Shown here: positions 63 to 31,398 of the stretch, in pieces | Numbering within the stretch: the first letter of the stretch is position 1 | Layout: each line of letters starts with the position of its first letter | NCBI GenBank assembly: GCA_004356895.1 | Contig: SMWK01000150.1 | Location: 1-33,475, forward strand | Reading direction: 5' to 3' | From: Gammaproteobacteria bacterium | GTDB taxonomy: Bacteria > Pseudomonadota > Gammaproteobacteria > Pseudomonadales > Azotimanducaceae | DNA: 33,475 nt | Made by a program: the position numbers and the translations under genes | The notes under the pieces: model-generated | What the model was told of the DNA's origin: nothing | Database searches by the model: none | What the model saw: the letters and a program-made list of their open reading frames with translations, nothing else

Positions 63-139
63 TGGCGGAGCGGACGGGACTCGAACCCGCGACCCTCGGC
101 GTGACAGGCCGATATTCTAACCAACTGAACTACCGCTCC
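63..139 (-). tRNA. tRNA-Asp (anticodon GTC)
   Basis: Read on the minus strand this is a 77-nt cloverleaf. The acceptor arm is GGAGCGG paired with CCGCTCC, the T-arm contains GGTTCGAGTCC, and the anticodon loop CTGTCAC carries GTC. The 3' CCA is encoded. It lies 21 bp downstream of tRNA-Val in the same orientation, so both are probably processed from one transcript. Confidence 0.97.
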
Positions 140-160
140 GTTTCTCGAATACCCGACAAT

Positions 161-236
161 TGGTGGGTGTTGCAGGGGTCGAACCTGCGACCTACGGCTT
201 GTAAGGCCGTCGCTCTCCCAACTGAGCTAAACACCC
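161..236 (-). tRNA. tRNA-Val (anticodon TAC)
   Basis: The minus strand gives a 76-nt tRNA. The acceptor arm is GGGTGTT/AACACCC, the D-arm AGCTCAGTTGGGAGAGC, the anticodon stem ACGGC/GCCGT enclosing CTTACAA (anticodon TAC), and the T-arm contains GGTTCGACCC. The CCA end is encoded. It is the first gene of a two-tRNA transcript with tRNA-Asp. Confidence 0.97.
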
Positions 237-27068: not shown

Positions 27069-28259
27069 TCACTTCGGCAACGCAACCGCGCCTGCACGCT
27101 CGAGTTCACTGAATTCAGCCTTCGATATTCCGGCACTTTCGAGAATTTCCAACGAGTGTTCGCCCAGTCGTGGTGCAGGGCTTTTCACCTCGCTCGGTGT
27201 ACCCTCAAAAATCGCAGCGGGGCGCGCCTGGCGGATTTTGCCATGCCCTGCGAACTCGTATATCTGGATCGTGTGGTTTTCATGAATCTGAGCATCGTCC
27301 AGTAAATCGAGGCGTGTCAACAATGGCGCGGAGGGTACACCCTCCGCATCGAGGCGCTTAAGGATCTCGTCGCGCTCCCACTTCATGATTTCCACCGCTG
27401 TGAGCTGCTTGCGCTCCTCGGCGTTTCGAAAACGGGCGGTGGTCGTGGCAAAACGCTCATCATCTATCCAGTCGGGTTTGCCAAGCACCTTACACATACC
27501 CTTCCACTCGGAATCGGAGATCGCACCGGCTGTGATGTAGCCCGTTTTGGTCTCGTAAATAAGATCCATCGTACCCTGGTATTTGGTGACATCGATCTCA
27601 TCACCAACAAACGTGATGCCGGACATACCCTCGGGCCAAAAAAAGGCCACCATCGTGTCGAGCATCGAAAGTTTGATGTGCTGGCCACGTCCTGTGCGTT
27701 CGCGAGAGAACAGTGCCGAGGAGATCGCCTGCGCGGTGGTGATGGAAGTGACCTTGTCGGCAATGATGATGCGGAACATCTTCGGCCGACCCGTGTCGCG
27801 ATCGGCTTGTATATCGGTTGCCCCACATAACGCCTGGATCACCGGGTCGTATACCCGTTTGTGGGCATACGGACCCGTCTCACCAAAACCACTGATCGAG
27901 ACGTAAATGATGTCGGATTTGATTTTTCTGACAGCGCTCTCGCCAAATCCCATCCGCTCCATCGCGCCGGGTCGAAAATTCTGCACGAGCACGTCCGCGG
28001 TGCCGATGAGCTTGGCGAGGGCCTTTTTTGCCAGCTCGTTCTTGAGATCGAGGACCAGAGATTTCTTGCCTCGGTTGCAAGAGAAGAAACCGGCCGTGAG
28101 ACCGTTGCGGGCGTTGCCGATCTTACGCATCTCGTCACCGGCCGGAGACTCTATCTTGATCACATCCGCACCCTGATCCGCGAGGATGGCTGTCGCCACC
28201 GGCCCGGAGACCATGGTGGAAAAATCCAGAACACGTATTCCGTCAAGTGCACCCGGCAT
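27069..28259 (-). CDS. CaiB/BaiF (type III) CoA-transferase, second copy
   Basis: The 396-residue protein has the complete class III layout: LDGIRVLDFSTMVSGPVA, ADVIKIESP, CNRGKKSLVLDLK, IIYVSISGFGETGPY, and IIIADKVTS with Asp168 as the predicted catalytic aspartate. It is clearly diverged from the copy at 16280-17458 and is not a recent duplicate. It follows the metallo-beta-lactamase-fold gene by 29 bp in the same direction and may share its transcript. Together they could hydrolyse and then CoA-activate an ester or lactone; that is inference. Substrate unknown. Confidence 0.93.
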   Translation of the reverse strand: MPGALDGIRVLDFSTMVSGPVATAILADQGADVIKIESPAGDEMRKIGNARNGLTAGFFSCNRGKKSLVLDLKNELAKKALAKLIGTADVLVQNFRPGAMERMGFGESAVRKIKSDIIYVSISGFGETGPYAHKRVYDPVIQALCGATDIQADRDTGRPKMFRIIIADKVTSITTAQAISSALFSRERTGRGQHIKLSMLDTMVAFFWPEGMSGITFVGDEIDVTKYQGTMDLIYETKTGYITAGAISDSEWKGMCKVLGKPDWIDDERFATTTARFRNAEERKQLTAVEIMKWERDEILKRLDAEGVPSAPLLTRLDLLDDAQIHENHTIQIYEFAGHGKIRQARPAAIFEGTPSEVKSPAPRLGEHSLEILESAGISKAEFSELERAGAVALPK

Positions 28260-28288: not shown

Positions 28289-29221
28289 TTAGTTGGTGAG
28301 GCTGGTGTATGCCCGGTTGATCAACATCAACGGATCGCCATAGGTTTCGTCATATTCCGCCGTTGGCTTGGCGGCGATCACCGCGTCGAGATCCGCACCG
28401 TTATCGATGAGCTTGACGATGCGATCGCGCACCATTTTCAACATGTCGATGTAGGCCGATAGTGTTGCGTAGTCGGTCACCGGCCCGTGCCCTGGTATGA
28501 CAACCGTATCGGTATCAATCACAGCCAGTACCGCTTCACAAAAACTGATGACGCCGTTGATTTCGCCCCCATTGTCGGCATCGATAAACGGGAAGCCGGA
28601 ATTGTTGAACACATCACCTAAGTGCACGGCGTTTCGACCTCGAAAGATGACCGCCGTGTCACCGGTGGTATGTGCGGGGCCAAAGTGCAACAGTTCGATC
28701 TGCTCACCGTTGAAATGAAACTGCATGCGATCATCAAAGGTAATCACAGGTAAGGCAGCCGCGGGATACACCTGTTGTTTGTAACTCAGAGCAACCAGAT
28801 TGATCACGTGCTCACCCATCATCATGTCCCGTGAATTCGCCTGGGAAACGAGCCAGGTCCCTTCAGGGCCTAATGCCAGATTGCCTTCGGCGTGGTCGAA
28901 ATGCCAGTGGGTGTTGACAGCGAAATCGATTTCACCTCCGCCGAGTTCAGCAATGGCAGCGTTGATCTTCGGTATCATCTGTGGGAACTGGTCATCCACC
29001 ACGAGTACGCCCTGTGAACCGATGCTGACGGCAATATTGCCGCCGACTCCGAACAAAACGTAAAAACCGTCGGCAATTGTCTCAACCTCGATTTCCGCAT
29101 CAAAACTCCAATCGAATGCGGCCATCATTTCATCCAGCGATAACGTATCGTCAGAGTGGCTTGGCACTGCCGCCAGCACAGCCGTTGCTAAGACAAAAAA
29201 TCCCAATATTTTTTTGAACAT
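28289..29221 (-). CDS. Secreted metallo-beta-lactamase-fold hydrolase
   Basis: The 310-residue protein has a Sec signal peptide (MFKKILGFFVLATAVLAAV, then a polar PSHSDD). The mature MBL domain carries NTHWHFDH (His105, His107, Asp109, His110), His184 in GPAHTTGD, Asp203 in HLGDVF and His245 in IPGHGP, giving the full two-metal site. It is therefore an active periplasmic metallohydrolase of the broad SoxH/lactonase-like group; a true beta-lactamase role is not indicated. The ATG at 29221 follows GGAGGGG; longer frames start upstream without support. It is first in a possible operon with the CoA-transferase and divergent from the selenoprotein gene, with 120 bp between them. Confidence 0.9.
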   Translation of the reverse strand: MFKKILGFFVLATAVLAAVPSHSDDTLSLDEMMAAFDWSFDAEIEVETIADGFYVLFGVGGNIAVSIGSQGVLVVDDQFPQMIPKINAAIAELGGGEIDFAVNTHWHFDHAEGNLALGPEGTWLVSQANSRDMMMGEHVINLVALSYKQQVYPAAALPVITFDDRMQFHFNGEQIELLHFGPAHTTGDTAVIFRGRNAVHLGDVFNNSGFPFIDADNGGEINGVISFCEAVLAVIDTDTVVIPGHGPVTDYATLSAYIDMLKMVRDRIVKLIDNGADLDAVIAAKPTAEYDETYGDPLMLINRAYTSLTN

Positions 29222-29341
29222 CCTAATCCCCTCCATCGAGACTGAAAGCTGCACCCAACATAAAGGTTTTTCCTTCGAGCGCAAGGTGTGTGCCTAAACC
29301 AGTGCTAACATGACGACTCTACTGAGGAATAGTCAACTTCC

Positions 29342-30217
29342 GTGATCTCCTACATCGAGCGAACACGCAACTACTATGGAACCCTGGGATATCCGCCTTA
29401 CACCTGGGCGCACTTCGACACCGTGCCGTTTGCGTCGCCAGCCAGATCGGTCAACAAAGCCAGGCTTGCGTTAATCACCACCGCCGCTCCTTATCAATCC
29501 GGGCTTGCTGATCAGGGACCCGGCGCGCTGTACAACGCCGCGGCTAAGTTCTTTCGCACTTACACCATGCCGGTGACGCCCGTACCCGATTTGCGAATTT
29601 CCCATCTCGGCTACGATCGTAAACACACAACCGCAGCCGATCCCAATAGCTTCCTGCCAGTAACAAGACTGGCTGAAGCCGTAACATCCGGCGAGCTGGG
29701 GTCGCTCGCAGCGGAACTTATCGGTGTGCCGACAAACCGCAGCCAGCGTGTGACACTGCAACAGGACGCGCCGGAGGTGCTCGCAGCATGCCGCGAACAA
29801 GCGGTGGATCTTGCGCTGCTGGTACCGAGTTGACCTGTCTGCCATCAGACCGTGAGTCTGATCGCGCGCCATCTGGAAGAGAACGGATTGCCGACGGTGA
29901 TCATGGGTTGTGGGCGGGATATCGTGGAACATGTGGGCGTACCGCGGTTCCTGTACAGCGAGTTCCCACTTGGCAATTCCGCCGGTAAACCCGATGACGC
30001 GGATTCTCAGCGCGAGACGCTGCACCTGGCGCTGGCACTTTTCGACGCAGCTACAGAGCCACGAACGACTTTCCAATCGCCGCAGCGCTGGGCTGACAAC
30101 GACAACTGGCAGTACGACTTCTTGAATATCGATGCGCTCACTGCCGACAAAGTCGCCGCGCTCAAGGCGGATTTCGCCAGGCAGAAGCAAATCGCCAATC
30201 GCCTTAAGCGTGCTTAG
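29342..30217 (+). CDS. Selenoprotein of the glycine/betaine/proline reductase B (GrdB/PrdB-like) family
   Basis: One frame of 292 codons is interrupted only by UGA at 29831-29833. It reads ALLVPS, UGA (residue 164), PVCHQTVSLIARHLEENG, so Sec would form a U-x-x-C redox motif with Cys167. Both sides show the family: the N-terminal half has YYGTLGYPPYTWAHFDTVPF and ISHLGYDRKHTTAADPN, the C-terminal half PTVIMGCGRDIVEHVG and FPLGNSAGKP. Known relatives are substrate-binding or catalytic selenoprotein subunits of anaerobic amino-acid reductases; in other bacteria the role is unknown. No partner subunits are present. A hairpin 10 nt after the UGA fits a bacterial SECIS. The GTG at 29342 follows an in-frame TAG, with GAGGA upstream. 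The end overlaps the convergent acyl-CoA dehydrogenase gene by 4 nt. SelA, SelB and tRNA-Sec must be elsewhere. Confidence 0.88.
29844..29862 (+). promoter_or_regulatory. Bacterial SECIS-like hairpin
   Basis: ATCAGAC and GTCTGAT form a perfect 7-bp stem around the loop CGTGA, starting 10 nt after the UGA. The loop contains the G-U that SelB recognises in known bacterial SECIS elements, and the distance matches the E. coli fdhF upper stem-loop (about 11 nt). Confidence 0.72.
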
Positions 30218-31398
30218 TCCGGTAACCCGAGCACGCGCTTCGCCAGAATGTTCAACTGGACCTCAGACGTGCCCCCTTCGATGGAGTTGGCCTTGGAGCG
30301 CAACCACGCCCGGGTGTTTTCGAGTTCCGCTGTATCAAACGACTCCCCTCCCCAACCGAGGCCCTGAGTACCCATGATAGACAACAACAACTCATGACGA
30401 CCCTTGTTCTGTTCGGTGCCGTAATATTTGAACATCGACGACACGGCTCCGGGCGCTCGCCCGGTCGCTGATTCTTCCACCGAGCGCTTCATGGTGAGCG
30501 CGTATGCGGAATCGTTCATACGATGGCGGGTAATGTTCTCTCGCAAAACGGAATCGGCAATGATGCCATTGTCGAGTCCAACATACTTCGCGGCAACCTC
30601 TTCTAACGTCGCCCCACGCTGGTTGCCCCCGCCTATGCCCCCGATTGACGTGCGCTCGTACTGCAACAACCGTTTTGCAACCGTCCAGCCTTTGTTGACC
30701 TCACCGACGACGTTTTTCCTCGGCACCCGAACGTCGTCCAAAAACGTTTCGCAAAACGGTGACAACCCGCTGATCAGCAGGATCGGTTTGACCGAGACAC
30801 CTGGTGTCGCCATATCAAAAAGGATGAAAGTGATCCCTTGGTGTTTCGAAACATTCGGGTCTGTGCGGACCAGGCAAAACATCCAGTCCGCATTGTCGGC
30901 ACCCGAGGTCCAGACTTTCTGACCATTGATGATGTAGTCATCGCCGTCTTCAACTGCCTGGGTGCGCAAGCTCGCCAGGTCCGAGCCCGCGTTCGGTTCG
31001 CTGTAACCCTGACACCACCAGATTTCACCCCGGGCAATCTTCGGAAGATGTTCGGTTTTCTGCTCCTCGGTACCATATTCAAGAAGTGCAGGGCCAATCA
31101 TGCTGATCCCCATGCCTACATGGGCGGGACGTGCATTGATCAGCCTGAGCTCTTCGTGCAAAACGGCGTTTTCATCTTTGTCTAACCCACCGCCACCGTA
31201 TCGTCGTGGCCACATAGGTACCGTAAACCCGCGTTCGGCCATGCGTTCCAGCCACACTTTGGTATCCGAATTTCGGTATCTGGCACGACGTCCACCCCCC
31301 GGGTACTCGTTCGTCGCCATGGGCGTACGCATGCTCGCCGGGCAGTTCTCCTCGAGCCAGTGTCGTATGTCTTCTCGAAACGCCGCATCCCCGGCCAT
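30214..31398 (-). CDS. Acyl-CoA dehydrogenase
   Basis: The 394-residue enzyme has the standard three domains: N-terminal helices with PMWPRRYGGGG, the FAD/substrate motif QGYSEPNAGSDLASL (about 130-144), GQKVWTSGADNADW, and the C-terminal EGGTSEVQLNILAKRVLGLP that contacts the FAD of the neighbouring subunit. It oxidises an acyl-CoA to the 2-enoyl-CoA and passes electrons to ETF. The sequence resembles the FadE-like branch for bulky substrates such as steroid side chains, which is tentative. The ATG has AAGGTGG upstream. It lies 57 bp after the broken aminotransferase and overlaps the selenoprotein end by 4 nt. Confidence 0.93.
   Translation of the reverse strand: MAGDAAFREDIRHWLEENCPASMRTPMATNEYPGGGRRARYRNSDTKVWLERMAERGFTVPMWPRRYGGGGLDKDENAVLHEELRLINARPAHVGMGISMIGPALLEYGTEEQKTEHLPKIARGEIWWCQGYSEPNAGSDLASLRTQAVEDGDDYIINGQKVWTSGADNADWMFCLVRTDPNVSKHQGITFILFDMATPGVSVKPILLISGLSPFCETFLDDVRVPRKNVVGEVNKGWTVAKRLLQYERTSIGGIGGGNQRGATLEEVAAKYVGLDNGIIADSVLRENITRHRMNDSAYALTMKRSVEESATGRAPGAVSSMFKYYGTEQNKGRHELLLSIMGTQGLGWGGESFDTAELENTRAWLRSKANSIEGGTSEVQLNILAKRVLGLPD

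Follow-up and report, generated by a model that had tools for sequence, protein, structure and literature searches.

A probable PrdB/GrdB-type selenoprotein gene, split at an in-frame UGA, in a gammaproteobacterial genome

Positions 29342 to 30217 of the window, the 33,475-nucleotide stretch of DNA analysed here, very probably form a genuine gene whose product is a selenium-containing enzyme; standard gene callers cut it in two at a UGA codon. Comparison with related genes strongly supports selenocysteine (Sec) as the residue at this codon, number 164. Taken whole, the explanation we favour, with high confidence, is a selenoprotein of the PrdB/GrdB type whose UGA is decoded through SelB, tRNA-Sec and a downstream hairpin, and which is probably not a D-proline reductase but would carry out reductive chemistry of its own. 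The features concerned are as follows.

29342..30217, plus strand: PrdB/GrdB-superfamily putative selenoprotein gene, 291 aa, GTG start, predicted Sec at residue 164
29831..29833, plus strand: in-frame TGA, putative selenocysteine codon (codon 164), motif U-P-V-C-H-Q
29844..29862, plus strand: candidate bacterial SECIS-type hairpin, 7-bp stem, loop CGTGA, starting 10 nt past the TGA

The reading frame and conservation of its UGA codon

The frame runs from the GTG at 29342 to a TAG at 30215-30217, and its sole interruption is the TGA at 29831-29833. Both sequence and coordinates match what had been claimed from the letters of the window, namely a single frame broken only by this UGA. The same sequence-only reading held that the gene is hidden from standard gene calling, and the ORF lister does give it as two pieces, 29342-29833 and 29852-30217. 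A TGA with more than 70 open codons on each side was found at 25 places in the window, the present gene included. As such frames are common, an open frame alone is no evidence and the case rests on comparison.

Each half of the gene alone matched the PrdB model TIGR04483 (E 2.5e-7 and 1.9e-6), which agrees with the GrdB/PrdB-like homology proposed for both sides of the UGA, and the joined halves matched it at 2.1e-23. The protein scored 83 bits against a cut-off of 300, so the PrdB equivalog threshold was not reached. With the Pfam family GRDB (PF07355) it scored 27.7 bits, above the gathering cut-off of 22, in a match limited to profile positions 208-344 of 347.

An orthologue in a genome of the same genus (G002) is 82% identical and retains the TGA. 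Homologues were found in 55 of 97 genomes, the window's own among the 97, and amount to 142 stretches. Exactly one TGA was present in 139 of the 142, the position of the TGA being read only in the loci taken. The three exceptions have no TGA (G028), a TGA and a TAG (G010) and two TGA codons (G017); the G010 stretch (G010:C137:7783-8607), which is PrdB-like, is possibly decaying. Genomes of family f1 carry up to six PrdB/GrdB-like stretches with TGA each (G021, G045), a paralogue expansion.

Among the 30 best loci, window included, codon 164 is TGA in 29 and TGC in one. Named homologues, of which the best 80 of at least 559 confirmed were read, have TGA in 21, TGC in 49 and TGT in 10, or Sec in 21 and Cys in 59. 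One of the two search patterns behind this named set contains CPVCHQ, which favours Cys forms, so the set is not an open sample of residue 164 and, being also the best 80 of at least 559, does not give a natural ratio of Sec to Cys. Within these 80, Sec forms come from Rokuibacteriota (7), one Methylomirabilota MAG, Reyranella and other Alphaproteobacteria, and Gammaproteobacteria MAGs, and the Cys forms include those of Bradyrhizobium, Belnapia, Siccirubricoccus and Candidimonas. An alignment check on residue 164 had been proposed together with the Sec assignment; the residue was Sec or Cys in every homologue in which it was read.

Residues U164, P165, C167, H168 and Q169 were invariant in 31 aligned rows and again in 52, with Cys counted as U. 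Downstream of the TGA, C167, H168, Q169, R176, E179, R202 and W250 were invariant in the 52 rows. On a tree of the quick kind, with long branches flagged and with the states of two loci (L080 and L087) assigned from their TGA, at least seven changes between Sec and Cys are needed, and the window falls within a starred clade of six rows.

These results bear on the simplest alternative, that the TGA is a real stop, arising by nonsense mutation, pseudogene formation or assembly error, with a dead downstream half. That the Sec machinery other than selD was not found in the window's 73% complete MAG would fit such a stop. We nevertheless consider it extremely improbable. The same codon is TGA in 28 of the 29 other loci read in relatives, and 21 homologues in the named set (best 80 of at least 559) share it, Rokuibacteriota and Alphaproteobacteria included; seven residues downstream are invariant; and the hairpin, described below, is specific to Sec forms. 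Sec insertion rather than nonsense mutation, as originally argued, is the reading with which the comparative tests agree: conservation of the TGA, Sec or Cys at residue 164, and a hairpin that goes with Sec.

The hairpin downstream of the UGA

The predicted hairpin consists of ATCAGAC (29844-29850), the loop CGTGA (29851-29855) and GTCTGAT (29856-29862). It had been described as a perfect 7-bp stem with a GU loop beginning 10 nt after the UGA, and this is what the sequence contains, the loop reading CGUGA. When synonymous codons were drawn at random with the window protein fixed, the full 7-bp stem appeared in 2.2% of 20,000 draws; in 0.43% of 3,000 draws the minimum free energy (MFE) was as low as that of the real sequence or lower.

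The comparative evidence for the hairpin appears stronger than this random-codon test. With L087 excluded from the tables, all five inner pairs were intact in 47 of 51 Sec genes, the full inner stem being missing in the other 4, compared with 2 of 60 Cys genes; six or seven of the seven pairs were present in 45/51 and 19/60, respectively. Median MFE was -11.8 kcal/mol for Sec genes and -5.3 kcal/mol for Cys genes. Codon choice differed in the same way. Where the peptide is PVCHQTVSL, its Ser is encoded by AGT in 39/39 Sec genes and 4/42 Cys genes, against a background, taken over the frames of 30 loci of the family, of 73 AGT among 519 Ser codons. A further count of the Ser codon gave AGT in 43/43 Sec genes and 4/56 Cys genes. 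In one pair of loci, L160 (Cys) and L159 (Sec), PVCHQTVSLVAR is encoded by differing codons, with three of the five inner pairs in the former and all five in the latter.

Changes within the stem were also recorded among the Sec genes, in counts where related rows are not independent. Both bases of a pair were altered in two genes at 18-28, in two at 19-27 and in eleven at 15-31 (C-G to T-A); mismatches were T-T at 19-27 in 4 genes and A-C at 14-32 in 21. A strict phylogenetic sign test had only two independent Sec/Cys contrasts on starred branches, of which on average 1.8 to 2.0 went as expected and about none in the opposite direction; with two contrasts this test has no power, and the hairpin association cannot reach significance in it. 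Overall, the hairpin looks like a signal kept at the level of RNA and not a by-product of the protein.

Probable selenocysteine decoding in the host genome

The window's own MAG comprises 3.07 Mb in 319 contigs and is 73% complete. SelD was found above cut-off (268 bits) within one 734-residue frame (L016, G000:C185); the region ahead of SelD in that frame is presumably an NADH-dehydrogenase-type domain. Searches of this 73% complete MAG found neither SelA nor SelB nor tRNA-Sec, and no selenouridine synthase either. A 48-bit tRNA-Sec match was rejected as a tRNA-Ser with anticodon tga, and the top SelB match, a 396-residue frame at 195 bits and below cut-off, was set aside, as its length and score suggest EF-Tu.

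In the same-genus genome G002, selA, selB and tRNA-Sec lie together on contig C185, 6318 to 9657. Since the three genes are adjacent there, one assembly gap could have removed all three from the window's MAG. SelB, SelA and tRNA-Sec were each above cut-off in 55 of the 97 genomes. Among 36 genomes of the order outside the family, SelB was above cut-off in five, and the only one of the 36 with a PrdB-like gene, G081, is one of these five. Its gene (L087, G081:C2:16822-21183) has a TGA and the motif UPVCNQ, and adjoins tRNA-Sec, selB and selA. Four genomes of the family (G016, G035, G036 and G058) have tRNA-Sec but gave no match to a PrdB-like gene.

Two further loci of the window's own genome contain a TGA of this kind. 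A second PrdB-like paralogue (L080, 450-1205, G000:C243) is 35% identical to the window protein and has the TGA and 7/7 hairpin pairs. A SelW/Rdx-type gene on the minus strand (L176, G000:C41:1719-1928) reads CVQ-TGA (CVQU) with a hairpin after it, and by these sequence features is a second candidate selenoprotein family in the MAG.

A different reading of the codon is that a reassigned or suppressor tRNA inserts Trp or Cys at UGA, and Cys is indeed the alternative residue in homologues. This too we regard as highly improbable. TGA also serves as an ordinary stop in this organism, being the last codon of nine of the 20 window genes checked; of the 55 genomes with a PrdB-like gene, 47 have tRNA-Sec above cut-off; and the hairpin goes with TGA. 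The preferred reading, which the comparison of genes supports, is that SelB, tRNA-Sec and the downstream hairpin would together let the ribosome insert selenocysteine at UGA 164.

Neighbouring genes, possible function and relation to known reductases

The genes next to the selenoprotein gene are those named in the sequence-only reading: acyl-CoA dehydrogenase, metallo-beta-lactamase (MBL) and CoA-transferase.

30214..31398, minus strand: acyl-CoA dehydrogenase, convergent neighbour, 4-nt overlap
28289..29284, minus strand: metallo-beta-lactamase-fold hydrolase, divergent neighbour, adjoining the gene also in G002 (85%)
27069..28259, minus strand: class III (CaiB/BaiF) CoA-transferase, outside the group paired with PrdB-like genes elsewhere

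NCBIfam names for the neighbour genes were all below cut-off. Two tRNA genes (Asp, Val) lie at the contig end (window 66-236). In the window's clade, an acyl-CoA dehydrogenase homologue (74-78%) lies near the orthologue in three of five other members, and an aminotransferase homologue likewise recurs in three of the five, some of the contigs being short.

In 35 of the 80 named loci (best 80 of at least 559) a class III CoA-transferase gene of the same orientation lies no more than 400 nt downstream, namely in 18 of 21 with Sec and 17 of 59 with Cys, one Cys locus having no room for it; among unnamed loci the count was 2/19. All but one of these 37 downstream enzymes fall into a single group of 36, every one having a median identity of at least 52% to the others (58% as the overall median, with a range of 31-99). 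The exception, at the Sec locus L108, has a median of 33% to the others and was excluded, which leaves one orthologous CaiB-type CoA-transferase as the next gene in 34/80 named loci (best 80 of at least 559). Paired and unpaired CoA-transferases are about 31-34% identical (medians). The CoA-transferases of the window were rejected as part of the pair, being 28-37% identical to the paired enzymes, and a direct search of the window's own genome for the paired type at E <= 1e-60 gave nothing above 39%. The window's own clade lacks the pair, and in two named plasmid records the neighbours of the Cys form are of other kinds. On one of these plasmids, that of Roseomonas (L172, 6965-9350), the Cys form is followed by an opposite-strand gene annotated SelO. 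For some members of the family a CoA-linked role is therefore a lead; for the window gene itself it is only a guess. The pairing with a PrdB-like gene was not found in print in the open literature searched and is new here.

The partner family PF09338 (the PrdA/GrdE-type pyruvoyl subunit) was found neither in the window's own genome nor in 59 of the 60 genomes searched, 35 of which carry a PrdB-like gene. The sole PF09338 gene, in G017, shows that the search is able to find the family; its neighbour is a GrdB-like stretch that contains two TGA codons (L171, G017:C195:55529-58110), and this locus is perhaps a true glycine/betaine-type reductase. The original description of the window gene as standing alone holds in that no PrdA/GrdE-type gene was found in the 73% complete genome, but the gene is less unusual than was thought, as the marine UxxC PrdB family has long been described and Cys forms are named in RefSeq.

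These observations weigh on the name given by marine surveys, under which the product would be a true subunit B of D-proline reductase. PrdB is the best NCBIfam model (E 2.1e-23) and Sec occupies the homologous position of PrdB; the score, however, is 83 bits against a cut-off of 300, PF09338 was not found in the window's own 73% complete genome and was found in 1/60 genomes searched (35 of them gene-bearing), and prdB of Terrisporobacter, by contrast, adjoins prdA. With no gene for a pyruvoyl subunit found, the product is probably not D-proline reductase, and we judge that name very improbable, if by a hair less so than the two alternatives for the UGA.

The AlphaFold model of the window protein has a mean pLDDT of 95.7 and places a strand at 157-161 and a helix at 165-180, with Sec164 directly preceding the helix. 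Among solved structures, sequence searches returned no convincing relative (lowest E 0.64 and 0.26), and Foldseek gave nothing at E <= 0.001. VIA-align reached a best Z of 8.6, to LacI-type and other Rossmann-like chains, a likeness that may reflect no more than a common arrangement; the VIA-align matches listed included no thioredoxin-type chain.

We propose that the selenol of Sec164 would attack a small substrate at an activated carbon or sulfur, that Cys167 of the motif UPVCHQ is the likely resolving thiol and would resolve the selenium intermediate as a selenenylsulfide, and that a thioredoxin-type donor would recharge the enzyme. The reaction, we infer, is reductive Sec/Cys chemistry free of pyruvoyl, on a substrate that may be a CoA ester or an acid derived from one. 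A broader proposal, which we put forward tentatively and think rather less than even in likelihood, is a class of Sec-dependent reductases of the PrdB/GrdB fold that lack a pyruvoyl partner and act on a CoA ester or its free acid together with a dedicated CaiB-type CoA-transferase, whose gene follows directly in Rokuibacteriota, Alphaproteobacteria and some Gammaproteobacteria. The variant in the window would have lost the transferase or never had it.

Also possible, though doubtful, and a rival on function only, is a housekeeping selenoprotein of thiol redox (a disulfide or peroxide reductase) in place of a metabolic reductase. The UxxC motif, the varied neighbourhoods and the Cys forms in Bradyrhizobium and Belnapia, which are aerobes, are consistent with it, whereas the orthologous CoA-transferase next to 34/80 named loci (best 80 of at least 559) suggests that some members of the family have a metabolic substrate.

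Selenoproteins of the PrdB type with a UxxC motif were described before and have been known from seawater for twenty years. The Sargasso Sea survey of 2005 counted 42 PrdB sequences with the motif UXXC (PMC1088965), and the GOS survey of 2008 counted 235 (as pfam07355), with the term PrdA absent from its main text (PMC2398784). Proline reductase or PrdB is among the bacterial selenoproteins of other surveys and reviews (PMC1794560, PMC9312934, PMC5029168). Searches of the open literature on the gene with Rokubacteria, or on PrdA in Alphaproteobacteria, gave nothing relevant, and further searches gave only known reviews and clostridial papers. The present analysis adds a well-documented Sec/Cys case, in which the same peptide is encoded by differing synonymous codons and the SECIS hairpin accompanies Sec but is lost with Cys. 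A second suggestion from it is that a selenoprotein widespread in the sea and filed as proline reductase lacks the subunit that this reaction needs, and it offers the CoA-transferase gene pair as a lead to the real function of the marine PrdB-like selenoprotein.

Compared with known systems, the window gene resembles the marine 'proline reductase PrdB' selenoproteins, reported in the surveys as UxxC proteins abundant in marine samples with both Sec and Cys forms, in a likeness of description (name and motif). To clostridial PrdB of Peptoclostridium acidaminophilum the window protein is 31% identical over 168 residues, and Sec151 of that protein aligns with Sec164. D-proline reductase, which opens the D-proline ring reductively (PMC13188914), differs in its 237-aa PrdB, shorter than the 291 aa of the window protein, and in having PrdA, of which no gene of that type was found in the 73% complete MAG. 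Selenoprotein B of glycine/sarcosine/betaine reductase (PF07355), for which the same source gives the motif UxxCxxC in GrdB, is the family whose Pfam cut-off the window protein passes; that enzyme has a GrdE/PF09338 partner, and none was found for the window gene. Two proteins on Roseomonas and Haematobacter plasmids, called 'glycine/sarcosine/betaine reductase selenoprotein B family protein' in RefSeq, are 52% and 50% identical over 100% and 93% of the protein and share the CP(V/I)CHQ motif, with Cys (TGC) where the window gene has its predicted Sec.
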